A stretch of DNA of 64,000 nucleotides, from assembly GCA_900318535.1 (NCBI GenBank), contig ONKU01000009.1, positions 50,916 through 114,915 of the forward strand, in the 5' to 3' direction. Of this stretch, positions 11,685 through 63,500 are shown in pieces. The translations under genes and the position numbers were made by a program. Each line of letters starts with the position of its first letter. Within the stretch, counting starts at the first letter, position 1. The DNA comes from an uncultured Prevotellaceae bacterium. Its GTDB lineage: Bacteria > Bacteroidota > Bacteroidia > Bacteroidales > Muribaculaceae. The notes below the pieces were generated by a model. That model made no database searches. It was not told the origin of the DNA and saw nothing but the letters and a program-made list of their open reading frames with translations.

Positions 11685-11855
11685 ATCTCTATTCTTTTAA
11701 TTGATTAACACACCCGATCAACCATGCAAAAACTATGCCAAGCGCTCAAAACCAGATGCTCCAAAACAAAACCACGTACCATATCTCATGAACCTCCTTA
11801 GAAACATAAAACTTAAAATCTTGCCTTTTTCTTTCATCGTTTTGGGGTATTTTGC

Positions 11856-11863
11856 TATATTTG
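11856..11863 (+). promoter_or_regulatory. Promoter -7 box of the first BspA-like gene
   Basis: TATATTTG with TTTC 20 nt upstream fits the Bacteroidota promoter. The bases right after the box (CAGCAAATATCA) resemble those after the boxes of the two other BspA-like genes. The untranslated leader would be about 65 nt. Confidence 0.5.
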
Positions 11864-11932
11864 CAGCAAATATCATCTCGCCGTAGATTTATTGATAACT
11901 ATCAAGGAATCAAAATCATAAAACGATACGCT

Positions 11933-40055: not shown

Positions 40056-40085
40056 GGGAGCGCTATGGTCTTCCACTGCGCTCCC
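40056..40085 (-). terminator. Rho-independent terminator of the nuo-atp transcript
   Basis: Stem GGGAGCGC/GCGCTCCC (40056-40063 with 40078-40085), extended by CG-rich pairs, followed on the minus strand by GCTTTTTTATTG. It lies about 100 nt after nuoN and is the first convincing terminator downstream of nuoA, 17 kb away. Confidence 0.75.
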
Positions 40086-40187: not shown

Positions 40188-41672
40188 TTACTGGATGAGG
40201 GCGAACATCGAGCTGATGGCATCGACGGCACCGTTGATGCTGGCATAGATGCAGCTGATCAAACCGATAAAGATGATGCCCAGCGTGCACAGGATGAGGC
40301 CGGCACGCTCGCTCCAGTGGCTCGTGATCTTGGGAATCACGCAATCGTCCTGACGCAGGAACATGGCCTTGACCACCAGCAGGTAGTAGTACAACGAGAT
40401 GATGGTGTTGACCAGCGCGATGAGCACGAGCACGTAGATGGCCACCGAACCCTGATGGCAAGCGCCCACAAAGATGAAGAACTTGCTGAAGAAGCCCGCA
40501 AACGGGGGAATACCACCCAGCGAGAACATCGCCAGCATCATTGTGAAGGCCAGCCAGGGGTTGGTCTTGAACAGGCCGTTGTAGTCGTCCATGGTGACCT
40601 TGCCGGTCTGGCGCTCGATCGCGGCAATCACGCCAAAGGCGGCGAGGTTGCTGAAGATGTATACCAGCACGTAGTAGATCATCGACGACATGCCCATCAC
40701 GTTCACGGCAATGATACCGAGCATGATGTAACCGGCTTGGGAAATCGACGAGAACGCCAGGAAGCGCTTCAGGTTGCGCTGGCGGATGGCGAACAGGTTA
40801 CCGATGGTGATGGTGAGCACGATGATGGCATACAGCATCCACTCCCACACCTGGCCATAGGCCGAACCGAACACCTGCACCAGAATCACCAGGAACGAGA
40901 ACGCGGCAGCACCCTTGCTGATGACCGACAGATAGCTGGTCACAGCGGTGGGGGCTCCCTGGTAAACGTCAGCGGTCCACTGGTGGAAGGGAACAAGCGA
41001 GAGCTTGAAGCCCACACCGGCGATGACAAATGCCAGGGCGGCAATCAGCAGCGCCGAGTGGTTGCCCATGACGCTGGTGGCGATGTCCTTGAAGTAGAGC
41101 GATCCGCTCATGCCATAGACGAACGAGATGCCCAGCAGGAAAATGGCCGACGAGAAGATGGCGGTGAAGATATACTTCGCAGCCGCCTCGTGCGACTCGT
41201 AGTAGCGTTTCTCAAAGGCAGCCAGCGCAGCGATGGGCAGCGAGGCGGTCTCCAGACCGATGACAAACAGCAGGAAATGGCGTGCCGAGATCATGAGGAA
41301 CATGCCCAGCAGCGTCAACAGCGTCAACTCGTAGAACTCGCCGCGGCGAACGCTCACAAAGTCGCTGTTGGTCCATTTCACAGCCTGCAGGAGCACCAGC
41401 ACGACGCCCACGTTGAGGATGTTCTTCATCACCCACGTGGCCGAGTTGCTCTCAAACATGCCGCCAAAGGCTTCTCCCACTCCGGCAGGGCAGCAGAAAC
41501 AGTATATCGTGTAGAGCGCCATCATCACGACCGAGAAAACCGGCATGTAACGCTGTGAGCGCTCAGGCATGAAAGTGTCATAGATGAAAACAAGCAGGAA
41601 AACCAGCAACAGGCCTATCTCCTGCGGCATCAACAAGAATTGTGAATAATCCATCATATCTGTATTATGCAA
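40188..41672 (-). CDS. nuoN: NADH-quinone oxidoreductase subunit N
   Basis: The 494-residue protein has 13-14 transmembrane segments and antiporter-like motifs typical of NuoN (FKLSLVPFHQWTADVYQGAPTAVTSYLSVISKGAA with the key Lys and His residues; FSLGGIPPFAGFFSKFFIF). It is one of three proton-translocating membrane-arm subunits of complex I. It is the last gene of the nuo-atp unit, 24 nt after nuoM, and is followed by a terminator. Confidence 0.95.
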   Translation of the reverse strand: MHNTDMMDYSQFLLMPQEIGLLLVFLLVFIYDTFMPERSQRYMPVFSVVMMALYTIYCFCCPAGVGEAFGGMFESNSATWVMKNILNVGVVLVLLQAVKWTNSDFVSVRRGEFYELTLLTLLGMFLMISARHFLLFVIGLETASLPIAALAAFEKRYYESHEAAAKYIFTAIFSSAIFLLGISFVYGMSGSLYFKDIATSVMGNHSALLIAALAFVIAGVGFKLSLVPFHQWTADVYQGAPTAVTSYLSVISKGAAAFSFLVILVQVFGSAYGQVWEWMLYAIIVLTITIGNLFAIRQRNLKRFLAFSSISQAGYIMLGIIAVNVMGMSSMIYYVLVYIFSNLAAFGVIAAIERQTGKVTMDDYNGLFKTNPWLAFTMMLAMFSLGGIPPFAGFFSKFFIFVGACHQGSVAIYVLVLIALVNTIISLYYYLLVVKAMFLRQDDCVIPKITSHWSERAGLILCTLGIIFIGLISCIYASINGAVDAISSMFALIQ

Positions 41673-41696
41673 TTTTTATCAGGTTAAACACTCTCA

Positions 41697-43226
41697 TCAC
41701 AACACGGGCAGGGCAGCCTGCAGCGCCTCGACAACGGGGGCAAAGCTGCTGCTGATGATGTTAATAAAGAAGTTGGGGAAGCAGCCGATGGCAGCCACAG
41801 CAAGGATCAGCGTGGCGGTCGAGAGGCGCTCCTCCCAGGTGGCATCGGTCAACGAGCGATGGTGCTCATCCTGTACCTCGCCAAACAGCAGCTTGGCGAC
41901 AACGCGCAGGATGTAGACCGCCGTCACCACAATCGACGTGGTCGCCATGATGGTGAGCACGCGGTGGAACAGGTCGGTGTGCTGGAACGAGCCGAAGAAG
42001 ATGGTCATCTCGGCCGCGAAACCGCTCAGACCCGGCAGACCCAGCGAGGCCAGACCGGCAATCACATAGCCCACACCCAGGTAGGGCATGATGTGCATCA
42101 TGCCGCCCATGTCGCGGATGTCACGCGTGTGGGTGCGACCGTAGATCATACCGATCAGGGCAAAGAACAGGGCCGTCATCAGACCGTGGGACAGCATCTG
42201 CAGCACAGCACCGGTCATCGCCGTGGTGTTGAACATGAGGATGGCAAACAATACCATACCGCAGTGGCTCACACTCGAGTAGGCGTTGATGTACTTGAGG
42301 TCGGTCTGCACACAGGCGCTCAACGCACCATAGACGATGCTGAAGCCCGTCAGCAGCAGGAAAATCCATGCCAGCTCGTTGGCGGCAAACGGCATCAGGT
42401 AGATGGCGATGCGGAAACAGCCATATCCACCAAGCTTCATCAGCACACCGGCGTGGAGCATCGACACCGCCGTGGGCGCCGAGGCATGACCGTCGGGAGA
42501 CCATGTGTGGAACGGGAACATGGCACCCAGCACGCCAAAGCCGACAAACGTCAGCGGGAACAGCAGGTACTGCCAGCTGTGGGGAATGGCATTGTTATGG
42601 GCAATGTCCAGGATGTTCATCGTCAAGGGCTGACCCTCGGGGGCCGAGTGGAAGTAGATACCAATCAGGCCAAGCATCAGGAAGGCCGAGCCACCCATCA
42701 GCATCAGGGTCAGTTTCATGGCGCTGTAGTTCTTGTTGCCGCTGCCCCACACACCAATGAGCAGGTACATGGGAATCAGAGCGACCTCATAGAACATGAA
42801 CATCGTGAACAGGTCGATCGAGATAAAGAAGCCGAACACGCCAGTCGACAGCAGGAAGAACCACATGAAGAACTGACGGGGCATGGGATTCATCTTCCAC
42901 GAGGCGAACACGCCGGCAAACACGATGAATGCCGACAGCAAGATCATCACCACGCTCACGCCATCGACACCCAGTGCCAGATGGACGTTGAACGGGGCAT
43001 ACCACAGCACGTCGCTGCGCAGGATCATCTCACTGGTGTCGCCGGCACCACGCGTCTGCAGGAAGATGCTCACCAGCCAAACGGCAAGCACCATGAGCGC
43101 GCTGGCACCAACAACGGCAACGGTCCTCAAGGCCTTGATGCCGCGGTTGCTGCACAGGGCCAGGCCTCCGAGTGTCAACAGAGGCACGATCACAAAGTAA
43201 ATCAGTATATTATTGAAAATTTCCAT
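41697..43226 (-). CDS. nuoM: NADH-quinone oxidoreductase subunit M
   Basis: The 509-residue protein shows NuoM features: FYEVALIPMYLLIGVWG with the conserved Glu, PFHTWSPDGHASAPTAVSMLHAGVLMKLGGYG and SSVSHCGMVLFAI. About 14 membrane segments form an antiporter-type proton channel of complex I. Length is standard. It sits 34 nt after nuoL and 24 nt before nuoN. Confidence 0.96.
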   Translation of the reverse strand: MEIFNNILIYFVIVPLLTLGGLALCSNRGIKALRTVAVVGASALMVLAVWLVSIFLQTRGAGDTSEMILRSDVLWYAPFNVHLALGVDGVSVVMILLSAFIVFAGVFASWKMNPMPRQFFMWFFLLSTGVFGFFISIDLFTMFMFYEVALIPMYLLIGVWGSGNKNYSAMKLTLMLMGGSAFLMLGLIGIYFHSAPEGQPLTMNILDIAHNNAIPHSWQYLLFPLTFVGFGVLGAMFPFHTWSPDGHASAPTAVSMLHAGVLMKLGGYGCFRIAIYLMPFAANELAWIFLLLTGFSIVYGALSACVQTDLKYINAYSSVSHCGMVLFAILMFNTTAMTGAVLQMLSHGLMTALFFALIGMIYGRTHTRDIRDMGGMMHIMPYLGVGYVIAGLASLGLPGLSGFAAEMTIFFGSFQHTDLFHRVLTIMATTSIVVTAVYILRVVAKLLFGEVQDEHHRSLTDATWEERLSTATLILAVAAIGCFPNFFINIISSSFAPVVEALQAALPVL

Positions 43227-43260
43227 TTGATATATCCTTTCTATTTTGTCAGACCGTTGA

Positions 43261-45258
43261 TTAGAGAATTACACATATCATGGTGATTGCAGCGAGCAGC
43301 AGGGCTCCCAGCAGATACACATATACATAGGCCTGTATGCTGCCCGACTGCAGACGGCGGATGCCGAACGACAGCGAGTTGGTGGCATCGGCCAGCAGAT
43401 TCATGAAGCCGTCGATGATGTGACGGTCAAACCAGGCAATGGGAACGCACAAGCCCTGGAAAATCACCTTGTGGGTGATGAACTGGTAGAGCTCGTCCAT
43501 GTAGAAGCGCTTGTAGCTTGCCGTCCACAGGCCACGCATCGAGTTGGCCATGCGCTCGGGCAGCGGGTTCTCCTTGAAGTACATCACCGTTGCCAGGGCA
43601 ATGCCGATGAGGGCGATCAGGACGCTCGTGCCAGCCACCTTCAGGTCGAGGGCGGTGTGCAGCTCCTTGCCGTCCCAGGTGACCATGTCGTGGAAGGGAA
43701 CGAAGCCCGCAACACACGAGATGGCAGCCAGGATAATCAGCGGCAGCGTCATCGTCCAGGGCTGGTCCTTGGGAGCGTGGTGCGCATCGTGCACCTCATG
43801 TTTCTTCCACCAGAAGATGAGGTAGTAGATGCGGAACATGTAGAAGGCGGTCATACCGGCCACCATCGACATCCAGATGCCCCAACCCAGGCCGCGCTGG
43901 TAGGCAGCGACGAGGATCTCATCCTTTGACCAGAAACCGGCGAACGGGGGAATACCCGCGATGGCCAGACAGCCGATGAAGAAGCAGATGCTGGTGATGG
44001 GCATGAACTTGTGCAGGCCGTGCATCTTGTCGTTCTCATTGCTGTGAACGGCATGGATGATGGCACCGGCGCACAGGAAGAGCAACGCCTTGAACATTGC
44101 GTGGGTGAACAGGTGGAACATCGACGCCATGTAACCCAGGCCGTAGCCCTCGTGGATCTCGATGAGCGAGTTCTGGTTGGACGAAACGGCCAGCGAGGTC
44201 ATCATGAAGGCGATCTGCGAGATGGTCGAGAAGGCCAGCGCACGCTTGATGTCGCTCTGGGTGCAGGCGATGGCGGCGGCATAGAACGCCGTGAAGGCGC
44301 CAACCACCAGGATGATGTTCATCGCGCCCTGCACGAGCACATACAGCGGGAACAGCCTAGCCACCAGGAATACACCGGCCACAACCATCGTAGCGGCGTG
44401 AATCAGTGCCGACACGGGGGTGGGACCCTCCATGGCGTCGGGCAGCCAGATGTGCAACGGGTACATCGCACTCTTACCGGCACCGCCGATGAAGATGAAC
44501 GTCAACGCCCAGGCCATAACCGAGCAACCCATGAAGGTGGCCCCTCCGGCAGTGCTGATGGCGCTCTGAGCCGTCTCCAGGCTACCCGACATCGTGGGCC
44601 CGAAGACCAGCTTGTCGAAGTCGAAGGTGTTGGTGTAATAGCTCAGAATCATGATACCCAGCAGGAAGAACAGGTCAGCCAAGCGGGTGACGATAAAGGC
44701 CTTCTTGTTGGCATGATTGGCGGCAGGCGTCGAGTAATAGAAACCGATGAGCAGGTAGGACGACAGACCCACCATCTCAAAGAAGATGAAAATCTGGAAA
44801 ATGTTGGTGGCTACCACCAGACCCAGCATCGAGAACGTGAACAGCGCCAGGAAGGCATAGTAACGCTGGAATCCCTTCTCGGCGTTGCCGTCATGGTCAC
44901 TCATGTACCCGAGGCTGTAGAGGTGCACCATCAGCGATACCGTGGTGATGACCACGAGCATCATTGCGGCGATGGGGTCTACAAGGACGCCCATGCGCAC
45001 CACCAGCGTGTCGGTAAACGACAGCCAGGCGGGATTGGCGACAACAACGGCCTGGCGAACGCCGTCCACCATCTGGCCCTGGCCGCTGCCAAAGAAATAG
45101 GTCAGCGCCACGCCATAGGCGAGGACGGTGTCGACCAGCATGGCCAGCACGCCAATCACACCGGTGATTTTTCTACCCATTTTCACCCCGACGAGTCCCA
45201 GGAACAGGAACATCAGCAGGGGTAATGCTACAACTACTATTGCTAAACTTAATGGCAT
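43261..45258 (-). CDS. nuoL: NADH-quinone oxidoreductase subunit L
   Basis: The 665-residue protein has the NuoL core (FFEMVGLSSYLLIGFYY, KSAMYPLHIWLPDAMEGPTPVSALIHAATMVVAGVFLVAR, HLFTHAMFKALLFLCAGAIIHA, GIPPFAGFWSKDEIL) and the long C-terminal part expected to hold the lateral helix along the membrane arm. It is the distal proton-pumping subunit. It begins 5 nt after the nuoK stop. Confidence 0.96.
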   Translation of the reverse strand: MPLSLAIVVVALPLLMFLFLGLVGVKMGRKITGVIGVLAMLVDTVLAYGVALTYFFGSGQGQMVDGVRQAVVVANPAWLSFTDTLVVRMGVLVDPIAAMMLVVITTVSLMVHLYSLGYMSDHDGNAEKGFQRYYAFLALFTFSMLGLVVATNIFQIFIFFEMVGLSSYLLIGFYYSTPAANHANKKAFIVTRLADLFFLLGIMILSYYTNTFDFDKLVFGPTMSGSLETAQSAISTAGGATFMGCSVMAWALTFIFIGGAGKSAMYPLHIWLPDAMEGPTPVSALIHAATMVVAGVFLVARLFPLYVLVQGAMNIILVVGAFTAFYAAAIACTQSDIKRALAFSTISQIAFMMTSLAVSSNQNSLIEIHEGYGLGYMASMFHLFTHAMFKALLFLCAGAIIHAVHSNENDKMHGLHKFMPITSICFFIGCLAIAGIPPFAGFWSKDEILVAAYQRGLGWGIWMSMVAGMTAFYMFRIYYLIFWWKKHEVHDAHHAPKDQPWTMTLPLIILAAISCVAGFVPFHDMVTWDGKELHTALDLKVAGTSVLIALIGIALATVMYFKENPLPERMANSMRGLWTASYKRFYMDELYQFITHKVIFQGLCVPIAWFDRHIIDGFMNLLADATNSLSFGIRRLQSGSIQAYVYVYLLGALLLAAITMICVIL

Positions 45259-45263
45259 AATCG

Positions 45264-45587
45264 TTAGAATTTCAGTTTAGTGATTTGGTTGATGTCCACG
45301 TTCCTGGCAATGCGGAAGACATTGATGATGATGGCCAGGGCAAGGGCCGTCTCGGCGGCCGCGATGGCTATCGCGAACAGCGAGAAGAACATGCCGTCCA
45401 TCTGACCGGGGAACAGGTAACGGTTAAACACCACAAAGTTGATATCCACCGAGTTGAGCATCAGCTCCAGTGAAATCATGATCGCAATCATGTTCTTGCG
45501 GGTGATGAAACCGTAAACACCGCAGCCAAACATGATCAGGCTGGGAATGAGATACATAAACAGTGTCAAGTCCATAATCTTTCTCAA
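45264..45587 (-). CDS. nuoK: NADH-quinone oxidoreductase subunit K
   Basis: The 107-residue protein has three transmembrane segments with the NuoK pattern MIAIMISLELMLNSVDINFVVFNR, including the conserved membrane Glu, and AIAIAAAETALALAIIINVFR with the second Glu. Both glutamates belong to the central proton path. It lies 3 nt after nuoJ and 5 nt before nuoL. Confidence 0.95.
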   Translation of the reverse strand: MRKIMDLTLFMYLIPSLIMFGCGVYGFITRKNMIAIMISLELMLNSVDINFVVFNRYLFPGQMDGMFFSLFAIAIAAAETALALAIIINVFRIARNVDINQITKLKF

Positions 45588-45590
45588 TGT

Positions 45591-46106
45591 TTAGCGGCGA
45601 CGGGCAATAACCACACCTCCAATGATACAAGCCAATAACAACACGCTGATGGCCTCAAAAGGCAACAGATAGCCGAACTTGTCGGTACTCAACAAGAACT
45701 GGCCGATCTTTTCCATATTGACGTCCACCCCGCTGGTGAGCAGTCTGCCACCAAAACCGGCATAGCTGAACAGGGCATAGCCGCACACGGCGACGCCTGC
45801 CAGCGCTGCCGTCAGTCCCAGCCAGCGACGATGCGTGGCCAGCGCCTCGGCACTCTTTCCGGGGTGTTGCGTGAGCATGATGGCAAACACAAACAGCACC
45901 ATAATGCCACCGGCATAGACGGCAATCTGCACAGCTCCCAGGAACTGATAGTCCATCTGGAAGTAGATGATGGCTGTGGCAAACAGCACAAACAGCAGAT
46001 AGGTTGCGGAGCGCAAAATCTTGCGCGTGGTAACCGTCAGCACCGAGAAGACGATGATGGCGATCGCAACAATAAAATACAAAATGATGTTACCTACTGA
46101 TTCCAT
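45591..46106 (-). CDS. nuoJ: NADH-quinone oxidoreductase subunit J
   Basis: The 171-residue membrane protein has five hydrophobic segments and the NuoJ signature of TM3, YFQMDYQFLGAVQIAVYAGGIMVLFVFAIML. It contributes to the conformational coupling element of complex I. Its ATG overlaps the last base of nuoI (46106). The C-terminus VLLLACIIGGVVIARRR is standard. Confidence 0.95.
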   Translation of the reverse strand: MESVGNIILYFIVAIAIIVFSVLTVTTRKILRSATYLLFVLFATAIIYFQMDYQFLGAVQIAVYAGGIMVLFVFAIMLTQHPGKSAEALATHRRWLGLTAALAGVAVCGYALFSYAGFGGRLLTSGVDVNMEKIGQFLLSTDKFGYLLPFEAISVLLLACIIGGVVIARRR

Positions 46107-46651
46107 TATTCCTTATTCTCTTTGGTTTCTTGTTTAGGCGCCGGTGCAGCAGGAGCCTCGGCAGGCTTGGCGGCCGGTGCGGGAGCAGGAGCGGGTTCGT
46201 CCTTCTCGGGCAGGTAGTTGAGCTGCTTGTTGAGCTTCTCGCGCGTGAACACGGCCTGCTCAAAGTCGTTGCTGAAGCGGATGGCGTTGGTGGGGCACAC
46301 CTGCACACACAGTCCGCAGAAGGTGCAGCTGCCCAAGTCATACATGTACTTGTCAAGCTTCATCTTCTTCTTGCCGTCGGGCAAGTCGACCATGCGCTTG
46401 GTGATGCTGATGGTTTGGTTGGGGCAGTTGCGCTCACAGCTGCCGCAGGCAATGCACTTGTGGCCGCCGTTCTCGTCATAGATGAACTCCAGCGTGGCCC
46501 TGAAGCGCTCCGGGATGTGCAGCTCGGCGCGGTTCTCGGGATACTGCTCGGTCACCTTGGGGGTCACCAGCTCCACGCCGGTCACCTCCATGCCCTTGAT
46601 CAGGCTGAGAAAGCCTTTGAAGATTGAGACGAAATACTCCTTGATATTCAT
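46106..46651 (-). CDS. nuoI: NADH-quinone oxidoreductase subunit I (2x[4Fe-4S])
   Basis: The 181-residue protein has two 4Fe-4S ferredoxin motifs, CIACGSCERNCP and CTFCGLCVQVCP, which hold clusters N6a and N6b and pass electrons to NuoB. The last about 35 residues are an Ala/Pro/Lys-rich low-complexity tail that is absent from classical NuoI. In most relatives nuoI follows nuoH directly; here it follows atpG, with the ATP synthase operon between. Its ATG is 36 nt beyond the corrected atpG stop. Confidence 0.96.
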   Translation of the reverse strand: MNIKEYFVSIFKGFLSLIKGMEVTGVELVTPKVTEQYPENRAELHIPERFRATLEFIYDENGGHKCIACGSCERNCPNQTISITKRMVDLPDGKKKMKLDKYMYDLGSCTFCGLCVQVCPTNAIRFSNDFEQAVFTREKLNKQLNYLPEKDEPAPAPAPAAKPAEAPAAPAPKQETKENKE

Positions 46652-47568
46652 AATATAATGGTTCTATTGTAATCGTTACATTTCGCGTTAGCGTTCCACC
46701 TGTCCGCCCAGGATATCGAGCAGCTCGGTGGTGATGCCCTGTTGACGCAGTTTGTTGTACTCCAGCTGCAGCTCGTCGAGCAGCTCGCGTTGTCGCTGGC
46801 CGCCTGCATCGCCATCACGCGCGCGCTCTGCTCGCTGGCCGTGCTCTGGATGAACACATCCTGGAGCATCGACTTGATGTGCAGCGGCAGCACGGTGTTG
46901 AAGATGGTGTTGGCGTCGGGCTCAAACAGGCAGGGGCTGTTGGCGGCGCGGGGGTCAACATTGTCGGCTAGGCCCTGGTAGCTCACGGGCAGCAGCTGCT
47001 CGCGGGTGAACACCTGCTTGCCGGTGGAGATGAAATGCATGTACAGCATCTCCACGCGGTCAAACGTGCGCTCCAGGAAGCGGGTCTTCATCAGGTCGGT
47101 GAAGGCATACAGCTCCTCGCTGCCGCTGCGGGTGTTGAGGGCCACCTTCTCCACCTGGATGTCCTTGCCGGCAATCTTCGAGACCGCCTTGGCCATCTTC
47201 TTGCCCACGGGCACGATGGTGATGCCCACCTGCGCGCCGTACTCGTTGCGCACCTGCTTGATGGTGACGAGCAACTGCTTGAAGATGTTGACGTTGAAGC
47301 CGCCGCACAGGCCGTCGTCGCTACCGAACACCACCAGTGCCACACGCTGCACGTCGCGCTCGGCGATGAGCGGCGAGTCAAACTGCTGGTCGGTGACCAG
47401 CAGGTGGCTGATGACGTGCTGCACCATGTGGCGGTAGGGCGACAGGCGTTGCAGCTGGCCAGTGGCCTTGCGCATCTTGGACGAGCTGATCATCTTCATG
47501 GCGCTCGTCGTCTTCTGCGTCGAGGCGACTGAACCTATTCGCGTCTTGAGTTCTCTTAATGTTGACAT
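46648..47568 (-). CDS. atpG: ATP synthase F1 gamma subunit, C-terminus frameshifted as sequenced
   Basis: The N-terminus STLRELKTRIGSVASTQKTTSAMKMISSSKMRKA and the ASEQSARVMAMQAASDNA segment identify the gamma rotor subunit. At 46786/46787 the frame breaks: the open frame goes on as nonsense to 46648 and overlaps nuoI. In another frame the expected C-terminal helix, ELLDELQLEYNKLRQQGITT... then GGQVER and a stop at 46690-46688, is intact. Alignment by eye suggests about 4 nt (or 1 nt) are missing in an otherwise normal 293-294-residue protein. The lost helix forms part of the central shaft, so a true lesion would be severe. Sequencing or assembly error is a real alternative. Confidence 0.88.
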   Translation of the reverse strand: MSTLRELKTRIGSVASTQKTTSAMKMISSSKMRKATGQLQRLSPYRHMVQHVISHLLVTDQQFDSPLIAERDVQRVALVVFGSDDGLCGGFNVNIFKQLLVTIKQVRNEYGAQVGITIVPVGKKMAKAVSKIAGKDIQVEKVALNTRSGSEELYAFTDLMKTRFLERTFDRVEMLYMHFISTGKQVFTREQLLPVSYQGLADNVDPRAANSPCLFEPDANTIFNTVLPLHIKSMLQDVFIQSTASEQSARVMAMQAASDNASCSTSCSWSTTNCVNRASPPSCSISWADRWNANAKCNDYNRTIIL

Positions 47569-47596
47569 CTTGCGAACTTAATGTGATTGCAGTATA

Positions 47597-49189
47597 TTAA
47601 CTGGCGGCAGTGGTATACTTCGAGGTTACCTCGGCAGCGGCGGCCTTGAGCTTGGCCATGACGTCGTCGTCGATCTTGCCGCTGCGCAGCACGTCGAGGA
47701 CGTCGTGCTGGTGCTTGCCGCGCAGGTAATGGATGAACAGTTTCTCGAACTCGGCCACCTTGTCCAGCGGCACGTCGCGCAACAGGCCGTTCACGCCGCA
47801 ATAGATGACGGCAACCTGCTCCTCGACCTGCATGGGCGTGTACTGGGGCTGCACGAGCAGGCGCTCGTTCTTGCGGCCCGTGTCGATGGTGCGCGCGGTA
47901 ACGGGGTCGATGTCTCCACCGAACTTGGTGAAGGCCTCGAGCTCACGGTACTGCGCCTGGGCGATCTTGAGCGTACCGGCCACCTTCTTCATGCACTTGA
48001 TCTGGGCATTACCACCCACACGCGATACCGAGATACCCACGTTGACGGCAGGACGGATACCCGAGTTGAACAGGGCCGACTCGAGGTAGATCTGGCCGTC
48101 GGTGATCGAGATCACGTTGGTGGGGATATAGGCGCTCACGTCGCCGGCCTGGGTCTCGATAATGGGAAGTGCCGTCAGCGAGCCGCCACCCTTGACGATG
48201 GGCTTGAGGGGCTCGGGCAGGTCGTTCATCACGCTGGCCACAGCCTGGTTCTCGTTGATCTTGGCAGCACGTTCCAGCAGGCGGCTGTGCAGGTAGAAGA
48301 TGTCGCCGGGATAAGCCTCGCGGCCCGAGGGGCGCTTGAGGATCAGCGAGATCTCGCGGTAGGCCACAGCGTGCTTCGACAGGTCGTCATAGATGACCAG
48401 CGCGTCGCGGCCGGTGTCGCGGAAGTACTCGCCGATGGCGGCACCTGCAAACGGTGCATAGTAACGCATCGAAGCCGAGTCGGCAGCCGTAGCGGCCACC
48501 ACGATGGTGTAGGGCAGGGCGCCGCTCTCCTCGAGTTTGTTGACGAGGGCAGCCACGGTCGATGCCTTCTGGCCGATGGCGACATAGATGCAATATACCG
48601 GCTTGCCGGCTTCGTAGCCAGCACGCTGGTTGATGATGGTGTCCACCGCGATGGCGGTCTTGCCGATCTGGCGGTCACCGATGATGAGCTCACGCTGGCC
48701 GCGGCCGATGGGGATCATCGAGTCGATGGCCTTGAGGCCCGTCTGCAGCGGCTGGTTCACCGGCTGGCGGAAGATGACGCCGGGAGCCTTGCGCTCCAGC
48801 GGCAGGCGCAGCTTGTCGCCGTCGATGGGTCCCTTGCCGTCGATGGGCTGTGCCAGAACGTTGATCACGCGGCCCAGCAGGCCCTCGCCCACCTCGATGG
48901 AGGCGATGGCGCCGGTGCGGCGCACCTTCATGTTCTCGGTCACGGTGTCCACCTCGTCCAGCAGGATGATACCCACGTCGCTCTCCTCCAGGTTCATGGC
49001 CACGCCGGTCACGCCGTTCTCGAACTGCACGAGCTCGTTGGCCTCGACATTGTGCAGGCCATAGGCATGAGCCACGCCGTCACCCACCTCCAGGACGGTG
49101 CCTTCTTCCTCAAAGGCCACCTGACGCTTGGCGATGTCTTCGACGAGCTGCTGTTTCAGTATATCAGATATTTCACTGGGATTAATCAT
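47597..49189 (-). CDS. atpA: ATP synthase F1 alpha subunit
   Basis: The 530-residue protein has the alpha-subunit P-loop GDRQIGKTA and the segments [65 protein letters not shown], including the arginine finger in the SVSRVG stretch. It holds the non-catalytic nucleotide sites of F1. It lies between atpH and atpG and appears intact. Confidence 0.97.
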
Positions 49190-49198
49190 CTCTTGTAG

Positions 49199-49741
49199 TT
49201 ATTTCTTTTGCAGTTGTAATCGCAATTCGTTCAATTCTCTCTTTACCGACGCGTCAAGCACCAGGTCGTTGATGACCACGGTGAAGCCGCCAATCAGCTC
49301 GGGGTCGATGACCTGCTCGATTTCGAGCTCCATCGCGCCCAGGCGCTTCTTCACGATGTCGATAATGGCATTGACCTCGGCCTCGGGCATGGGGACCGCC
49401 GTGGTGATGACCACGTGGGCAATCTCGTGGGCCTCGCGGTAGAGGTCGACGTAGGCGAGGGAAATCTTCTGCAGATACTCCGTGCGGTTGTTGCGCACGC
49501 ACAGCAGCAGGAACTTGTCCAGCGAGCTGCCGGGCTTGCCGCCGGCGAGTTTGAGCATATAGGACCCCTTGGCCTCGTCAGAGATTTCTGGATTGAGCAC
49601 AGCGCGCTTGAGTTCGTCGATAGCGGTGTAGCGGAAACTCAGGCCCTTCAAGAGCTCGTAAATCTCCTGCGCGTCACCGTTCTCGACGGCGTACTTGTAC
49701 AGCGCTTTGGCGTATCGGCGTGGAATCAGTCCGTCACTCAT
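49199..49741 (-). CDS. atpH: ATP synthase F1 delta subunit
   Basis: The 180-residue protein has the OSCP/delta pattern: MSDGLIPRRYAKALYKYA at the start and EQVIDPELIGGFTVVINDLVLDASVKRELNELRLQL near the end. It joins the peripheral stalk (b subunit) to the top of F1. It begins 6 nt after atpF and ends 9 nt before atpA. Confidence 0.95.
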   Translation of the reverse strand: MSDGLIPRRYAKALYKYAVENGDAQEIYELLKGLSFRYTAIDELKRAVLNPEISDEAKGSYMLKLAGGKPGSSLDKFLLLCVRNNRTEYLQKISLAYVDLYREAHEIAHVVITTAVPMPEAEVNAIIDIVKKRLGAMELEIEQVIDPELIGGFTVVINDLVLDASVKRELNELRLQLQKK

Positions 49742-49747
49742 ATCGCA

Positions 49748-50245
49748 TTAGTTTTTAGCCTCAACCTCACTCAGATATTGGTCAACAAGCGCGCGCTGGG
49801 CATCGTCGTTGGCGATGTTCTTGCGGATGACCTTTTCGGCGATTTGCAACGCCAGGTCGCCCACCTCGGTGCGCAGCTGCTTCTCGGCCTCCTTGCGTGC
49901 CTGCTCGAGCGACACCTGGGCCGCCTCGGTCACCTTCTTGGCTTCGTCGGCTGCCTCGCCGTGGGCCTTCTCGATGAGCTCGTTGCGCATCTTGGCGGCC
50001 TCACGCAGGATTTCGGCCTGCTCGTTGCGGGCTTCGGCAATCAACTTGTCTGCCTCGGCCTTGGCATTGTCCAGATGCGACTTGGCTTCCTGGGCATAGG
50101 CAACCCCCTTGTCAATCATGTCGGCACGCTCCTCCATACTCTTGATGATGAAAGGCCATGCCCACTTGGCAAGGATGCCAAAGAGGCACAGGAAGGCGAT
50201 GAACATCCAGAACGCCAGGCCAAATTCAGGCTTGAAAAGTTCCAT
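49748..50245 (-). CDS. atpF: ATP synthase Fo b subunit
   Basis: The 165-residue protein has one N-terminal transmembrane segment (FGLAFWMFIAFLCLFGILAKWAWPFII) followed by a long Glu/Ala/Lys-rich helix, the peripheral stalk dimer. Lies between atpE and atpH with short spacers. Confidence 0.95.
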   Translation of the reverse strand: MELFKPEFGLAFWMFIAFLCLFGILAKWAWPFIIKSMEERADMIDKGVAYAQEAKSHLDNAKAEADKLIAEARNEQAEILREAAKMRNELIEKAHGEAADEAKKVTEAAQVSLEQARKEAEKQLRTEVGDLALQIAEKVIRKNIANDDAQRALVDQYLSEVEAKN

Positions 50246-50268
50246 CTGGTAAACCGGTTAAGGGTGGA

Positions 50269-50559
<291 letters not shown>

Positions 50560-50584
50560 TTATTGATAATCTCATGTTCAATGT

Positions 50585-51658
50585 TCACTCGGCGTGCTCA
50601 TGGACGTGGGCCATCGAGATGAACATGGTGGAAAGGATAGTGAACACATAGGCCTGGATGAAGCTCACCAGCACATCGAGCAGGAGCATGAACAGCGACA
50701 GCGCTACCGAGAGCGGCGTCATCGCTCCACCCACAGCGGTGCCGAACATGCTGCCGAAGATGAAGATCAACAGCATGAACACGATCACCACCATGTGGCC
50801 ACCCATCATGTTAGCAAAAAGACGAATCATCAGCGCGATGGGCTTGGTGAAGATGCCAAACAGCTCGATGACCTGCATCAGGGGCACGGGGCACTTGAGC
50901 GCCGTGGGCACGTCGGGCCAGAACATCTCTTTCCAGTAGTGCTTGGTACCCGTCAGGTTGGTAATCAGGAAGGTGATCAGCGCGAGCACGGCCGTCACCG
51001 CCAGGTTACCCGTCAGGTTGGCACCACCGGGGAAGATGACAATCAGACCCAGCAGGTTCATCGTCAGGATAAAGAAGAATACCGTCAGCAGGTAGGGGGC
51101 ATATTTGGGGGCCTCCTTGCCCATGATGGGGCGGATGGTGTCGGTATACACAAAGTCCACCACCAGTTCCAGGGCGGCGGTAAAGCGGCGCGGTGCCTTC
51201 ATTCCGTTCTTCTTGTACCAGTTCTTGACCTTGAAGACCATCAGCAGCACCAGCAGGGCGGCAATGAAGATGCCGGCCACATTCTTGGTGATGGACAGGT
51301 CCACGGGACGGTACTGGCTGCCGTCGGGCAGCACCTGGACCACCTTGTTGTTGTAGTCCCCGCCCTTGGCGATCTGGAAACCGTCATACTGTGCACCCTC
51401 GTCGAGGCGGCTCGACATGAAGGCATGCCACGAGCCGTCCTGGGCGCGCACGATGATGGGTAACGGGATGCGCTTGCTATGGTTGAACGGCACCTCCCAG
51501 CCATAGGCATCGCCCAGGTGCTCAAAGATGATCTCCTGGGGGTCCACCTCGGCCTCGCCGCCGCCACTGTGGGCACGGTGGGCTGCCGTGTCGGCATATC
51601 CCAGTGCCATGAGTGCGACGATGACGACCGCGATGATTGCTGTGATTGCTTTCTTCAT
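50585..51658 (-). CDS. atpB: ATP synthase Fo a subunit
   Basis: The 357-residue protein is longer than classical a subunits because of an N-terminal signal-like helix and a periplasmic domain (HAHSGGGEAEVDPQEIIFEHLGDAYGWEV...), a feature I associate with Bacteroidota. The core contains LRLFANMMGGH-type sequence (LMIRLFANMMGGHMVV) with the essential Arg, and the final helices SVALSLFMLLLDVLVSFIQAYVFTILSTMFI. It forms the half-channels for protons next to the c ring. Confidence 0.95.
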   Translation of the reverse strand: MKKAITAIIAVVIVALMALGYADTAAHRAHSGGGEAEVDPQEIIFEHLGDAYGWEVPFNHSKRIPLPIIVRAQDGSWHAFMSSRLDEGAQYDGFQIAKGGDYNNKVVQVLPDGSQYRPVDLSITKNVAGIFIAALLVLLMVFKVKNWYKKNGMKAPRRFTAALELVVDFVYTDTIRPIMGKEAPKYAPYLLTVFFFILTMNLLGLIVIFPGGANLTGNLAVTAVLALITFLITNLTGTKHYWKEMFWPDVPTALKCPVPLMQVIELFGIFTKPIALMIRLFANMMGGHMVVIVFMLLIFIFGSMFGTAVGGAMTPLSVALSLFMLLLDVLVSFIQAYVFTILSTMFISMAHVHEHAE

Positions 51659-51667
51659 AGTCTTGCG

Positions 51668-51901
51668 TTAATACAGGCAAACCGACACCACATTATCTTT
51701 AACATCGGCCACACCGCCGTGAATGTCACGCTCCACGGTGTTGCCATCGGCCACATAGCACATGCGGCCCGCCTTGAGGGCGGCGATGAGCGCGGCATGG
51801 TTCTTGAGCACCTGGAACTGGCCCATGACGCCAGGCAGGGTCACCTGCTCGACGGTGCCTTCAAACTCGATTTGTTCAGCCGATATGATTTTGAGTGTCA
51901 T
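51668..51901 (-). CDS. atpC: ATP synthase F1 epsilon subunit (short form)
   Basis: The 77-residue protein is the N-terminal beta-sandwich of epsilon (MTLKIISAEQIEFEGTVEQVTLPGVMGQFQVLKNHAALIAALKAGRM) without the C-terminal helices. The short form implies it links gamma to the c ring but cannot act as the extended inhibitory arm. The length is typical for the phylum. It lies between atpD and atpB. Confidence 0.93.
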   Translation of the reverse strand: MTLKIISAEQIEFEGTVEQVTLPGVMGQFQVLKNHAALIAALKAGRMCYVADGNTVERDIHGGVADVKDNVVSVCLY

Positions 51902-51942
51902 GTTTATATAAAAATGTATGACTGAATGATACTGATGCGATA

Positions 51943-53405
<1,463 letters not shown>

Positions 53406-53438
53406 TTATTGTGTTTTTATTGTTGATTTTTCCATGCA

Positions 53439-54521
53439 TCAGGCGCCAAAGTACCACTTCTGGGTTACCACGATGGCCATCACCACCAGGTTCACCAGGC
53501 CGATGGGCATCAGGTAGCGCCACTCCAGGGCCAGCATCTGGTCGATGCGCACGCGCGGGAACGACCAGCGGATCCAGAAGAAGATGAATGTGATGAAGAA
53601 CGCCTTGCCCAGGAACCATACCACGCTGGGAATCCAATCCATCACCTGGTTGAAGCCTTCCCAACCGGGAATGTGCAACGGCATCCAGCCGCCTAGGAAC
53701 AGCAGCGTGGCGATGCCCGACACGATGAACAGGTTCAGGTACTCGGCCAGGTAGAAGAAGCCGAAGTGGATACCCGAGTACTCGGTGTGGTAACCGGCCG
53801 TGAGCTCGTGCTCGGCCTCGGGAAGGTCAAACGGGCCACGGTTGTTCTCGGCATTGGCGGCAATCATATATATAATGAACGCGAGAATGGCGGGCAGGTG
53901 GCCCTTGAACAGGAACCAGCCGTCCTGCTGCGCCTCGACGATGCCCGTGATGGACATGGTGCCGGCCAGGCACACGATCGTCAGGATCGAGATGCCGCAG
54001 CTCAGCTCGTAGCTGATCATCTGGGCTCCCGAGCGCATAGCGCCAATCAGGGTATACTTGCTGTTACTTGCCCAGCCGGCGAGCAGGATGCCCAGCACGC
54101 CGATGGACGACACGGCGACGATGAAGAACACGCCGATGTTCATGTCAACGATCTGCAGGCCCTTGCCCCACGGCAGGCAGGCAAAGGTGAGCATCGAGGC
54201 GATGAGCACCAGATAGGGCGCGAGCTTGAACAGGAACTTGTCGGTGTGCCACAGGGTAATCAGCTCCTTCTGCAGGATCTTGATTACGTCGGCAAACACC
54301 TGGAGCAGACCCCACTTACCCACACGCATCGGGCCCAGGCGGCACTGGATCCAGCCGCACACCTTGCGCTCGTAGAAGATGTAGAACATGGCGATGAGCG
54401 AATAAGCTACCAGCAGACCTACTGCCACCAGCACACACTCGATGGTCGTCGTGAGCCATCCCGGCATCACGCTGTTGAGCAGCTCATCAATCCATCTCGT
54501 GACGATTCCGAAGTCAAACAT
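53439..54521 (-). CDS. nuoH: NADH-quinone oxidoreductase subunit H
   Basis: The 360-residue protein has eight or nine membrane segments and NuoH landmarks [66 protein letters not shown] and [30 protein letters not shown]. It lines the quinone entry and couples quinone reduction to the pump. The next gene downstream is atpD rather than nuoI. Confidence 0.96.
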
Positions 54522-54567
54522 ATCTTGTTTCCTTTTTTAGTTGTTTTTGTTCTAGCTGATTAACTCG

Positions 54568-56202
54568 TTAGCGGTCGATGTCGGGGATGACGAAGTCGAG
54601 CGACGCCGTGATGGTGATCAGGTCGGCAATCATGTTGTCGCGGCACGTCAGGTCCACCACGCCGATCAGGTTGAAGCACGGTGACTGGAAGTGAACGCGC
54701 ACGGGCTTGGCATTGCCGTCGCTCTCGATGTACACGCCAAAGGCCCCGCGGCTGGCCTCTACCTGCTGGTACCAGTGGCCGGCGGGCAGCTTCATCATCT
54801 TGGGCACCTTGGGAGCGATGTACTCGCCCTGGATGCCCTCGGCCTCCAGCTTGTCGCAGGCCTGGCGCAGGATCTTGATGCACTGCTCCATCTCCTTCAT
54901 GCGGACCATGTAGCGGTCCATCGAGTCGCCGTTCTCATAAACGACCTCGTCAAAGTCGAACTCGTTGTAGAGCGAGTAGGGGTTGGTCTTGCGCACGTCG
55001 CAGTGCCAACCGCTGGCACGGCCCGAGGGGCCGGTGATGTCATAGGCGATGGCGTCCTGCTTGCTCAGGATGCCCACGCCGGTCATGCGGTTCACGGCGA
55101 TGACGTTGCCGGTGAACAGCTTGTGGTATTCCTTGAGGTTCTTCTCGATGACGTCACACGCGTGGCGCACGTCCTTGATGAAGTCCTCGTGCACGTCGGC
55201 CACCACACCGCCGATGGTGCTGTAGCTCATCGACATGCGGGCACCGCAGGTGCGGTCAAAGATGTCATAAATCAACTCGCGGTCGCGGAAACCGTAGAAG
55301 AACGCCGTCGTGGCGCCCTGGTCCATCGTCAAGCAGCCGTAGCTCAGCAAGTGCGACGACAGGCGCATCAGCTCGTCCATCATCAGGCGGATGAGCTCGG
55401 CGCGGCGGGGCACCTCAAGGCCGAGGGCCTTCTCGACGCACAGGCACATGCAGTGGCGGTTGATGTGGGCGGCCATGTAGTCCATGCGCTCGGTGTAGAG
55501 CAGCATCTGGGGATAAGTCAGGCTCTCGCACATCTTCTCGATGCCGCGATGGATGTAACCGCTCACGACGTCGATTTTCTTCACGATCTCACCGTCCAGG
55601 CTGGCGCGGTAACGCATCACACCGTGGGTGGACGGGTGCTGCGGGCCCACGTTGACGACATACTCGTCGTCCTCAAACACCTTGCCGTCGATCTTGGTCA
55701 CCTTGCCGTTCTCGTCCTCGACCCAGCGGCAGGTGTAGTCCTCGTTGGTCTCGTCGTCGAGGCGCAGCGGATTGCTGGCGGGGTCATAGTCCTTGCGCAG
55801 GGGGTAACCCACCCAGTCGGTGCGCAGGAACATGCGGCGCATGTCGGGATGGCCGATGAACACGATGCCAAAGAAGTCAAACACCTCGCGCTCCTGGAAA
55901 TTGGCCACGGGCCACAGGTCGCACACGCTGTGCAGGCGGGGATTCTCGCGGTCGGCGGTAGCCACCTTCACGTGCAGCAGCTCGTGGGCGCTGGTGTTGG
56001 TCAGGTAATATACACAGCCCAGGGCCTCGGTCCAGTCCATGCCCACCACGGCGCTCAGCACGTCGTAGTGCAGCTGGGTCTTCAGGGCGCTTGCCAGGTC
56101 GTGCCACTGCGCGTCATCAACGGTGACCAGCGGGAACTCGCCGGTGGTGTCAACCTGCGCCTGGGGGCACAACTGGGTGATTTTGTTCTCTATATCTGCC
56201 AT
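54568..56202 (-). CDS. nuoCD: NADH-quinone oxidoreductase fused subunit C/D
   Basis: The 544-residue protein fuses a NuoC-type domain (about residues 1-150; VYYLTNTSAHELLHVKVA, DLWPVANFQEREVFDFFGIVFIGHPDMRRM) to NuoD (about 180-544; VNVGPQHPSTHGVMRYRASLDGE, SGYIHRGIEKMCESLTY, DPASN-type linker). NuoD forms the quinone site with NuoB. The C-terminus DFVIPDIDR is standard. Fusion of C and D is common in this phylum. It starts 25 nt after nuoB. Confidence 0.96.
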   Translation of the reverse strand: MADIENKITQLCPQAQVDTTGEFPLVTVDDAQWHDLASALKTQLHYDVLSAVVGMDWTEALGCVYYLTNTSAHELLHVKVATADRENPRLHSVCDLWPVANFQEREVFDFFGIVFIGHPDMRRMFLRTDWVGYPLRKDYDPASNPLRLDDETNEDYTCRWVEDENGKVTKIDGKVFEDDEYVVNVGPQHPSTHGVMRYRASLDGEIVKKIDVVSGYIHRGIEKMCESLTYPQMLLYTERMDYMAAHINRHCMCLCVEKALGLEVPRRAELIRLMMDELMRLSSHLLSYGCLTMDQGATTAFFYGFRDRELIYDIFDRTCGARMSMSYSTIGGVVADVHEDFIKDVRHACDVIEKNLKEYHKLFTGNVIAVNRMTGVGILSKQDAIAYDITGPSGRASGWHCDVRKTNPYSLYNEFDFDEVVYENGDSMDRYMVRMKEMEQCIKILRQACDKLEAEGIQGEYIAPKVPKMMKLPAGHWYQQVEASRGAFGVYIESDGNAKPVRVHFQSPCFNLIGVVDLTCRDNMIADLITITASLDFVIPDIDR

Positions 56203-56227
56203 ATTTCAATGGATTTTATCGGGTTAT

Positions 56228-56827
56228 TTATTTGGCTTCCTCCTTCACATACTTCAGGCCCTCGAGTTTCTCCTTGCGGTTCACGCCGCCAAAGTACTTC
56301 TGCACCTTGATCTTGCGCTGCAGCTGCATCAGGGCATAGAAGAAGGCCTCGGGACGGGGCGGGCAGCCGGGTAGGTACACGTCGACGGGGATGATCTCGT
56401 CAACGCCCTTGACCACGCAGTAGCTGTTCTTGAACGGGCCACCGCTCACGGTGCACGAGCCGCACGCGATCACATACTTGGGCTCGGCCATCTGCTCGTA
56501 CAGGCGCTTCAGGGCCGGAGCCATGCGGTAGTTGATGGTGCCCTGGCACATGATGTAGTCGGCCTGGCGGGGGCTGTTGCGCGCCACCTCAAAGCCGTAG
56601 CGGGCCATGTCGTAGCGGGCAGCGCCCAGGCACATGAACTCGATAGCGCAGCAGCTGGTGCCGAAGCACAGCGGCCACAACGAGTTGCTCACACCCCAGT
56701 TCATCAGCTGGTCCAGCTTGCCAACGATGATGTTGGTGCCGCCGGCGCGCAGTTGCTCTACCAGGTTATCGATATACTCGTTGTCCTTGAAGTCCTCATG
56801 CTTCATCGACTTGATTTTCACTTCCAT
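56228..56827 (-). CDS. nuoB: NADH-quinone oxidoreductase subunit B
   Basis: With the ATG at 56827 the protein is 199 residues and has the N2 cluster ligands in TSCCAIEF, CGSC (IACGSCTVSGG) and PGCPPRPE. N2 passes electrons to quinone. The start overlaps the nuoA stop by about 10 nt, so the frame extension to 56938 lies in nuoA and is not used. The C-terminus KVQKYFGGVNRKEKLEGLKYVKEEAK is somewhat extended. Confidence 0.95.
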   Translation of the reverse strand: MEVKIKSMKHEDFKDNEYIDNLVEQLRAGGTNIIVGKLDQLMNWGVSNSLWPLCFGTSCCAIEFMCLGAARYDMARYGFEVARNSPRQADYIMCQGTINYRMAPALKRLYEQMAEPKYVIACGSCTVSGGPFKNSYCVVKGVDEIIPVDVYLPGCPPRPEAFFYALMQLQRKIKVQKYFGGVNRKEKLEGLKYVKEEAK

Positions 56828-57192
56828 CTCAACGCTCCTTTCTTCCAGGCATAAGCCAGACCTAAAACCAGAATAACAAGGAAAGTGCCCACGGCAAGCA
56901 GGGCCTGACTGCCGATGTTCTTGCAGATGGTTGCCCACGGGAACAGGAAGACCGTCTCCACGTCAAACATCAGGAACAGGATGGCAAACAGGTAGTAACC
57001 CACGTGGTACTGGGCCATGGAGTCGCCTCGGGTGGGGATACCGCACTCAAAGGGCTCGCCTTTCTTCTCAGTGTAACTGCGCGGGCCAATGAGCCACGCG
57101 ATAACCAGGGCGCCGACTACCAGCAACACACCGGTCAAGGCCGCTGTGATGGCGAGCGTCGTGCTCTGTACTCCGAAAATTGAAAAATCCAT
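56818..57192 (-). CDS. nuoA: NADH-quinone oxidoreductase subunit A
   Basis: The 124-residue protein has three membrane segments and the NuoA motif KKGEPFECGIPTRGDSMAQYHVGYYLFAILFLMFDVETVFLFPW. It is the first gene of the nuo-atp transcript, about 135 nt downstream of a consensus promoter, and overlaps nuoB. No nuoE, nuoF or nuoG is found upstream. Confidence 0.96.
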   Translation of the reverse strand: MDFSIFGVQSTTLAITAALTGVLLVVGALVIAWLIGPRSYTEKKGEPFECGIPTRGDSMAQYHVGYYLFAILFLMFDVETVFLFPWATICKNIGSQALLAVGTFLVILVLGLAYAWKKGALRWK

Positions 57193-57326
57193 AAAAGATG
57201 TTTAGTATTTGTGATGTTTAATTTTTGGCGGTTTATGAATCGTTTTGCATTAAATACACTATCGCACAATTACTTACGGCTTTTGGCCGCAAGAAACTGC
57301 AACAATAATGCCCTCTAATGCGGTGC
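57193..57326 (-). other. Leader region of the nuo-atp transcript
   Basis: About 130 nt between promoter and nuoA. It contains a CGGCTTTTGGCCG hairpin and no ORF; a regulatory role is possible but nothing specific is recognised. Confidence 0.35.
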
Positions 57327-57358
57327 AAATTTACACAATTATTATAAAACAACCAAAC
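57327..57358 (-). promoter_or_regulatory. Consensus promoter of the nuo-atp superoperon
   Basis: On the minus strand TTTG (57358-57355), exactly 20 nt, then TAAATTTG (57334-57327): both boxes match the Bacteroidota consensus. Confidence 0.75.
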
Positions 57359-60569: not shown

Positions 60570-63500
60570 TTAGTAGCCTGGGTTGCTGGGGCCGCCGTCG
60601 ATGTGGGCGTAGGTCTTGTCCACATGGTTGGCATCGTAGGTCGTGCCCTGGCCGCCCACAAGGTTGAAGCAGTTCGTGAACATATCACTGGACTGCGTCA
60701 CAGCCGCAGTGCTCCAGTCATTGCCTACATAGATGGTCTGCAGATTGAGGCCGCCAGCGAACATGTATCTCATATCGGTCACCTTGGACGTGTTGAAATG
60801 GCTCACATCAAGGCTTGTTAGTATAGAGCAGTTGTAGAACATCGCGCCCATTGCAGTCACCTTGGACGTGTTGAAACTGTTCAAATCAAGGCTTGTTAGT
60901 ATAGAGCAGTTGTAGAACATCGCGCCCATGTCGGTTACCTTGGACGTGTTGAAGTGACTCAAGTCAAGACTCGTCAAATTTTTACAGCCTCCGAACATCC
61001 AAGCCATATTGGTCACCTCGCTGGTGTTCAGGTAACTCATGCCCGTGATGGATTCAAGATTCTGCATGTAATAGAACCAATCGTAGGTGGTCGTCGGGCG
61101 AGCACCAGCGAACGAGGGGTCAAAGACCGCCTTGGTCACACTGGCATTGGTGCCGTCACTCTCCCAACCGGGATGGGCGTATCCCTCGTTCAGGTCGTAG
61201 GTCGTGCCCGTGCGGCTGCTGCGCTGGTTGTCGTAGTAGAACGTCAGCGTCGTGTTCGAGGACGTGTAGCAGGCATAGGCCTCAGGCGCGTTCTTGTCTG
61301 TGAAGTAGCCCGGGTTGCTCGGGCCGCCGTCGATGTGGGCGTACGCACCATCAATGTGGTTCTCATCATAGGTCGTGCCCATGCCGCCCACCAGGCTGGT
61401 GCAGTTATTGAACATATTAACGGAGTTCGTCACGGCAGCGGTGCTCCAATCACTGCCCACATAGATGGTCCGCAGAAGAGTGCTACCTTCGAACATTTTA
61501 TTCATATTGGTCACGTTGGACGTGTTGAAACTGCTCAAATCAAGGCTCGTTAAGCCAGTGCAGTTATTGAACATTTGATTCATATATATCACCTTGGACG
61601 TGTTGAAGTGGCTCACATCAAGGCTTGTCAGTTTATTGCAGTTGTAGAACATCCAGTTCATATAGATCACTTCGCTGGTGTTCAGGTACTCCATGCCCGT
61701 GATGGATTGAAGGTTCTGCATGTTAAAGAACCAATCGCAGGTGGTCGTCGGGCGGGCGCCTGCGAACGAGGGGTCAAAGACCACCTTGGTCACACTGGCA
61801 TTGGTGCCATCGGTGTCCCAACCGGTATCGTATCTGCCCTCGTTCAGGTCGTAGGTCGTGCCCGTGCGGCTGCTGCGCTGGTTGTCGTAGTAGAACGTCA
61901 GCGTCGTGTTCGACGGCGTGTAGCAGGCGTATGCCTCTTTCCACTCGGTGAAGTAGCCCGGGTTGCTCGTGCCGCCGTCGATGTGGGCATAGGTCTTGTC
62001 CTTCGGGTTGGAGGAACTGTAGGTCGTGCCCTGGCCACCCACCAGACTGGTGCTGTAACTGAACATATTGTCTGAGTTTGTCACGGCCGTCGTGCTCCAT
62101 CCAGTGCCCACATAGATCGTTTGCAGATTCCTGCAGTCAAAGATCATGCAATTCATTGTGGTCACCCTGGACGTGTTGAAACCGCTCAAGTCAAGGCTCG
62201 TCAATCTATAGCAACTATTGAACATGTGACCCATATTGGTCACCTCGCTGGTGTTTAGGTAACTCAGGCCCGTGATGGATTGAAGGTTTGTCATATCATA
62301 GAACCAATCGTAGGTGGTCGTCGGGCGGGCGCCAGCGAACGAGGGGTCAAAGACCACCTTGGTCACGCTGGCATTGGTGCCGTCAGTGTCCCAAGCGACA
62401 TCGGTGTTGCCCGTGTTCAAGTCGTAGATCGTGCCTGTGCGGCTGCTGCGCTGGTTGTCGTAGTAGAACGTCAGCGTCGTGTTCGACGGCGTGTAGCAGG
62501 CATAGGCCTCTTTCCATTCGGTGAAGTAGCCCGGGTTGCTGGGGCCTCCGTCGATGTGGGCGTAGGCCTTGTCAATATGGTTGGCATCGTAAGTCGTGCC
62601 CTTACCGCCCACCAGGTTGAAGCAGTTCGTAAACATATCACTGGACTCCGTCACAGCCGCAGTGCTCCAGTCATTGCCTACATAGATGGTCTGCAGATAA
62701 TCACAGTCATAAAACATGTTGTACATACTGTTCACCTTGGACGTGTTGAAACTGCCCAAGTCAAGACTTGTTAGTCTTGTGCAGTATTTGAACATGCTTC
62801 TCATGCTGGTCACCTTGGACGTGTTGAAGCGGCTCACATCAAGGCTCGTCAAGCTTGTGCACCACATGAACATATAGGCCATATTGGTCACCTCGCTGGT
62901 GTTTAGGTAACTCATGCCCGTGATGGATTGAAGGTTTGTCATATCATAGAACCAATCGAAGGTGGTCGTCGGGCGTGCATTAGCAAACGAGGGGTCAAAG
63001 ACCACCTTGGTCACATTGGATTTGGTGCCGTCGGTGTCCCAATCGGTATAGTTGCTGCCCGTGTTCAGGTCATAGGTCGTGCCCGTGCGGCTGCTGCGCT
63101 GGTTGTCATAGTAGAACGTCAGCGTCGTGTTCGACGACGTGTAGCAGGCATAGGCCTCGGTGCCTCTGGTGAAGTAGCCCGGGTTGCTAGGGCCGCCGTC
63201 GATGTGGGCATAGTCGATACCAACATGGCTGCTGTTGAAGGTCGTGCCCTGGCCGCCCACCAGAGAGGTGCAATTGTAGAACATTCCCGCGGATGCTTCC
63301 ACGGCAGCCGTGCTCCAGCCACTGCCCGCATAAATGGTACGAAGGTTACTGCAACCCATAAACATGCCTCCCATGGCAATCACATTGGCCGTGTTGAAAC
63401 TGCTCAGGTCTAAGACCGTCAAGCTGCTGCAGCCCCTGAACATGCTCACCATATGGGTTACAGCACTTGTGTTCATATAGTTTAGCCCATAGATAGTCTG

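Follow-up and report, generated by a model that had tools for sequence, protein, structure and literature searches.

An ATP synthase operon nested within the complex I operon of a Muribaculaceae bacterium and of related Bacteroidales families

The lineage S24-7 (Ca. Homeothermaceae), which we take to be the Muribaculaceae, provides the closest described system. Its complex I locus encodes 11 of the 14 subunits, lacks NuoEFG and carries an F-type ATP synthase integrated within it, according to the locus description of Ormerod et al. 2016 (PMC4936053). A complex I without NuoEFG is also encoded by the nuo operon of Bacteroides fragilis (BF638R_0850-0841). According to that report, removal of nuo left NADH:quinone oxidoreductase activity and NADH oxidation without significant change, the operon is poorly expressed in rich medium, and the electron donor is described as unknown (PMC7002350). 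Here we analyse a 64,000-nucleotide stretch of contig ONKU01000009.1 (the window) in which the eight subunit genes of an F1Fo ATP synthase (atp) lie among the genes of a complex I (nuo) operon. We consider it very likely that the block represents the usual energy operon of the Muribaculaceae and several related Bacteroidales families, into which the atp genes were inserted once and which is read as one transcription unit of ~17 kb.

Pfam and NCBIfam profile searches give, on the minus strand from 57192 down to 40188, the order nuoA-B-CD-H, then atpD-C-B-E-F-H-A-G, then nuoI-J-K-L-M-N. The genes, order, strand and coordinates proposed in an initial annotation of the window are all borne out, and 8 of 8 ATP synthase subunit genes are found. 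The nuoH/atpD joint lies at 53387/53439 with a gap of 51 bp, and the atpG/nuoI joint lies near 46651/46690. The window organism is a member of the Muribaculaceae and its F-type ATP synthase genes lie within the complex I locus, the two features by which the locus of Ormerod et al. 2016 can be recognised. The features of the region, from the upstream to the downstream end, are as follows.

57326..57357, minus strand: promoter-like site of the Bacteroidota type, 165 bp upstream of nuoA (TTTG, followed by TAAATTTG)
56818..57192, minus strand: nuoA (PF00507, 7.7e-35)
56228..56827, minus strand: nuoB (PF01058, NF011391); start at 56827 likely by homology, with a longer GTG open reading frame (ORF) from 56938
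54568..56202, minus strand: nuoCD fusion (PF00329 and PF00346)
53439..54521, minus strand: nuoH (PF00146, 1e-116)
51943..53387, minus strand: atpD (F1 beta), split between two frames, with the N part in ORF 52425-53387 and the C part in ORF 51943-52731
51668..51901, minus strand: atpC (F1 epsilon), 77 aa (PF02823, 3.3e-19)
50585..51658, minus strand: atpB (Fo a; PF00119)
50269..50511, minus strand: atpE (Fo c; PF00137)
49748..50245, minus strand: atpF (Fo b; PF00430)
49199..49741, minus strand: atpH (F1 delta; PF00213)
47597..49189, minus strand: atpA (F1 alpha; TIGR00962 above cut-off)
46648..47568, minus strand: atpG (F1 gamma; PF00231 in two frames, and alignment)
46106..46651, minus strand: nuoI with a Pro/Ala-rich C-terminal tail (NuoI models slightly below cut-off; Fer4)
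45591..46106, minus strand: nuoJ (PF00499)
45264..45587, minus strand: nuoK (PF00420)
43261..45258, minus strand: nuoL (NF005141 above cut-off)
41697..43226, minus strand: nuoM (TIGR01972 above cut-off)
40188..41672, minus strand: nuoN, first listed start TTG (TIGR01770 above cut-off)
40056..40085, minus strand: intrinsic terminator-like hairpin, then a T run

The nesting is the rule in the window organism's family and not an oddity of one genome, which the initial annotation had overlooked. NuoH was found in 194 of 198 Muribaculaceae genomes and AtpG in 191 of 198; both are represented among the matches listed for 110 of the 198. The two genes lie on one strand at the nested distance (6692-7824 bp apart) in 96 of these 110 genomes and on different contigs in 14. 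Nine of the 14 were inspected (all save G048, G065, G067, G120 and G196), and all nine break inside the cluster, each retaining at least one joint and seven retaining both, distributed over two contigs; G093 has the right joint only and G056 the left joint only.

The arrangement also extends to other families of the order. The order tally covers the 45 of 139 genomes with both genes among the matches listed, complex-I-like NuoH rows having been chosen by bit score >330. Nested pairs occur in 9 of the 45, spread over seven families (f1, f22, f28, f60, f68, f88 and f109), six of them besides the window's own f1. The genes lie on different contigs in 33 genomes and on the same contig but apart in three. 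Among these 36, the nine inspected at nuo all have nuoI within 64 bp of nuoH; in the other 27 the spacing of the two genes differs from that of nested loci, a difference that breaks between contigs could also produce. The adjacency of nuoH with atpD and of atpG with nuoI, looked for in related genomes as had been proposed for the window, is recurrent: all 34 nested regions inspected show both joints and nuoA, and 33 have the complete order from nuoB to nuoN, the exception (L084) ending after nuoI at a run of N. The notion that Bacteroidota keep nuo and atp as separate loci, on which the initial annotation had relied, is not supported: seven families of the order sample nest them, and for the Muribaculaceae the nesting has been in print since 2016, in the locus description cited above (PMC4936053). 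In a sample of the phylum, no nested pair was noticed by eye, unscripted, among the matches listed for 148 genomes (G000 included). In G357, atpG lies upstream of nuoH and nuoI directly follows nuoH.

A real split of the operon was considered for G007 and G137 (L129, L232, L233), where nuoJ-N are apparently absent after nuoI, and was rejected: both breaks coincide with stretches of N within the nuoI tail, which is repetitive. In G007, nuoL is found ~1 Mb away on the same contig. We attribute these breaks to faulty scaffolding; alternatively, the N may stand for sequence that was withheld.

All 35 nested loci group into a single clade in a tree of nine Nuo proteins (44 loci; local support 1.0) and again in a tree of six Atp proteins (48 loci; local support 0.987). 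Given this shared clade, a single origin by one insertion is likely and the simplest reading. We infer the direction in which the pieces moved: most likely the atp operon entered the nuo operon in a single event, oriented the same way, in an ancestor shared by the nesting families, and the nested layout has been inherited since. Among nested loci the energy block is fixed while its surroundings shuffle. The 1.5 kb after nuoH are common to 595 of 595 nested locus pairs, whereas genes next to nuoN are common to 3 of 528 pairs (flank median 1598 bp) and genes before nuoA to 14 of 561 (flank median 1002 bp).

G302 (L104, L105), the genome of a near relative without nesting, carries its atp and nuo operons 11.4 kb apart, convergent, with other ORFs between them. 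This arrangement may hint at the way in which nesting was gained or lost.

One transcript of ~17 kb from nuoA to nuoN is the most likely reading of the block. The promoter-like site that the initial annotation placed upstream of nuoA is in the sequence, in the Bacteroidota form TTTG / TAnnTTTG at 57326-57357, and the terminator it placed at 40056-40085 is present, folding at -21.8 kcal/mol (z -4.46). TAnnTTTG, the -7 motif of Bacteroidota, was counted in the 200 bp upstream of a gene and compared with expectations from dinucleotide shuffles. It precedes nuoA in 59 of 79 nested loci (13.2 expected) and shows no excess before atpD (7 of 91 loci, 7.2 expected) or nuoI (2 of 91, 2.7 expected). Among 36 loci, no complete two-box site lies before any gene other than nuoA. 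The proposed lack of internal terminators holds for the gaps: each of the 17 internal gaps has 0 terminator-like sites across 36 nested loci (35 for the gaps after nuoI), and such a site follows nuoN in 10 of 35 loci (0.0 in shuffles). A simpler scan finds 12 terminator-like sites in the region, against 14.4 expected by chance, some of them within coding sequence. The nuoH-atpD gap measures 19-132 bp across 36 nested loci and the atpG-nuoI gap 14-141 bp across 35 (window left out). A sigma-70 scan gave 17 sites against 9.1 expected and was set aside. With the -7 motif strongly enriched only before nuoA, the internal gaps free of terminator-like sites and the joint gaps short, these statistics favour a single transcription unit, as first proposed, over other readings. 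Transcription would start from one promoter before nuoA and end at the terminator after nuoN.

Several observations weigh against one or another part of this account. The -7 motif is mildly enriched before nuoL (15 of 89 loci, 5.6 expected) and before nuoM (16 of 89, 4.6 expected), and internal transcription starts are possible there. Only 6 of 36 loci have both boxes of the site in the 200 bp ahead of nuoA (0.2 expected); the larger motif test, on 79-91 loci, uses the -7 box alone, and the terminator-like site after nuoN is seen in only those 10 of 35 loci. The related loci are not independent, so the motif and terminator counts are not probabilities. The trees differ in their nearest un-nested lineages and disagree on the un-nested G302, which the Atp tree puts as sister to the nested clade and the Nuo tree with G205 and G255. 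Finally, the atp genes of the window assembly are not all intact.

The genes could also be neighbours without co-transcription, with atpD and nuoI under promoters of their own of another kind and the order persisting since breakage of a long operon is rarely tolerated. Conserved order alone is indeed no proof of one transcript, and a single promoter type was tested across the loci. However, the gaps at the two joints (19-132 bp and 14-141 bp) have neither an excess of the motif nor a terminator-like site, and we regard separate transcription as unlikely. A single transcript remains the better reading of the block.

Two frame-breaking deletions, both overlooked in the initial annotation, affect the ATP synthase genes of the window. 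In alignments with the close relatives G187 and G164, atpD lacks 55 bp near 52666 and atpG lacks 4 bp near 46786; a third relative, G193, agrees. The reading frames of atpD and atpG are thus broken in the assembly, and both genes are whole in the aligned relatives. In atpG the frame breaks off around profile position 253 (PF00231), and the homologous C-terminus continues in another frame down to ~46688. We consider both breaks to be probably assembly faults, because protein identity flanking them is high, the other genes are undisrupted, and G187, from the window's genus, itself lacks 53 bp in nuoB. Flanking identity is 93-100 percent, except at the atpG end (67-69 percent), where the match extends back past the lesion. 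None of the other nuo/atp genes of the window of at least 120 residues is disrupted relative to G187, G164 and G193, and the smaller ones (<120 residues) have normal lengths. If the ATP synthase of this strain were truly broken and atpD and atpG were real pseudogenes, it would fit that both lesions fall in F1 genes and that no other testable nuo/atp gene of the window is disrupted. The identity beside the lesions instead points to selection acting until recently, and the nuoB deletion of G187 resembles the same type of assembly fault, which makes pseudogenes quite improbable. ATP synthase frame breaks in such assemblies require read support.

That the joints themselves are an assembly or binning chimera of one genome, as the two deletions in this assembly might hint, is next to impossible and is rejected for the layout, as both joints are found again in 64 of 80 named records, which include isolates by title, and in G173, a genome of the window's genus that consists of a single contig. 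The named loci are the best 80 of 567 matches to an AtpG alignment in which nested loci predominate, which biases this count towards nesting; a further 15 show the right joint only and one neither, all 16 being truncated at contig ends. Among the 64, the titles of Barnesiella sp. An55, Duncaniella muris DSM 103720 and Muribaculaceae Isolate-110 mark these records as isolates. NCBI taxonomy places Barnesiella and Coprobacter in the Barnesiellaceae and Duncaniella in the Muribaculaceae.

The operon encodes a complex I of the 11-subunit type, with nuoA, B, CD, H, I, J, K, L, M and N all present. No NuoEFG genes occur in the operon, the only place where NuoE and NuoG were looked for (no genome-wide search was made for these two). 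The genome's only NuoF-type match (PF01512) is a 635-aa ORF (L246) on another contig, C15, which may be a hydrogenase-type subunit. NuoI was compared between the window protein (46106-46651) and those of L070-L103 and L128. In Muribaculaceae it has a low-complexity C-terminal tail rich in Ala, Lys, Glu and Pro, 23-203 residues long (28 loci, with L084 excluded because of its N), and some of these tails carry a repeated short helical-looking motif. The tail is only 1-15 residues long in seven loci of other nesting families. In AtpC (51668-51901) the profile match covers the N-terminal beta-sandwich domain alone, and the C-terminal helical domain seems absent. At its ion site the c subunit of the window has EG, not ES or ET, a motif that suggests the use of protons rather than sodium.

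Elsewhere in the window, large proteins that combine DUF285 with leucine-rich repeats are encoded at 11852-14740 and at 60570-63806; the first also has a dockerin type I domain.

With a transcript in common, pump and turbine would be switched on and off together, and such co-expression might be of benefit. Shared transcription means shared timing, and subunit ratios are still set by translation; a shared transcript by itself does not fix the pump-to-turbine ratio, contrary to what had been suggested for this locus. Selection might further keep the linkage for the sake of one message, one spot on the membrane and a joint assembly of the ATP synthase with a complex I that lacks its NADH module, the family-specific tail of NuoI, whose gene is the first after the atp block, tethering the electron donor or another partner to this module in Muribaculaceae, an idea that we hold to be very doubtful. 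The locus provides, in common gut bacteria, a natural system with a proton pump that appears to share one promoter with the turbine drawing on its gradient.

Among described loci, the nested arrangement itself has been known for the family since the 2016 account (PMC4936053). The passages found in a limited literature search held no earlier report of the other nesting families, the single clade, the promoter statistics or the NuoI tail. Unlike the window, B. fragilis has its nuo genes under ten consecutive locus tags and so, judging by the tag numbers given in its report, probably has no atp genes inside (PMC7002350). The un-nested genomes G205, G199, G271 and G302 have the same nuo gene order as the window, and G205 and G302 have atpD-C-B-E-F-H-A-G in one row as well; in all four, unlike the window, nuoI follows 2-18 bp after nuoH and the atp genes are elsewhere. 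The window most resembles the S24-7 locus as described (PMC4936053), sharing the 11-subunit complex I, the operon without NuoEFG and the nested ATP synthase. To that account the present analysis adds the positions of the joints, the extension to six other families, a probable single origin, the promoter and terminator statistics and a family-specific NuoI tail.

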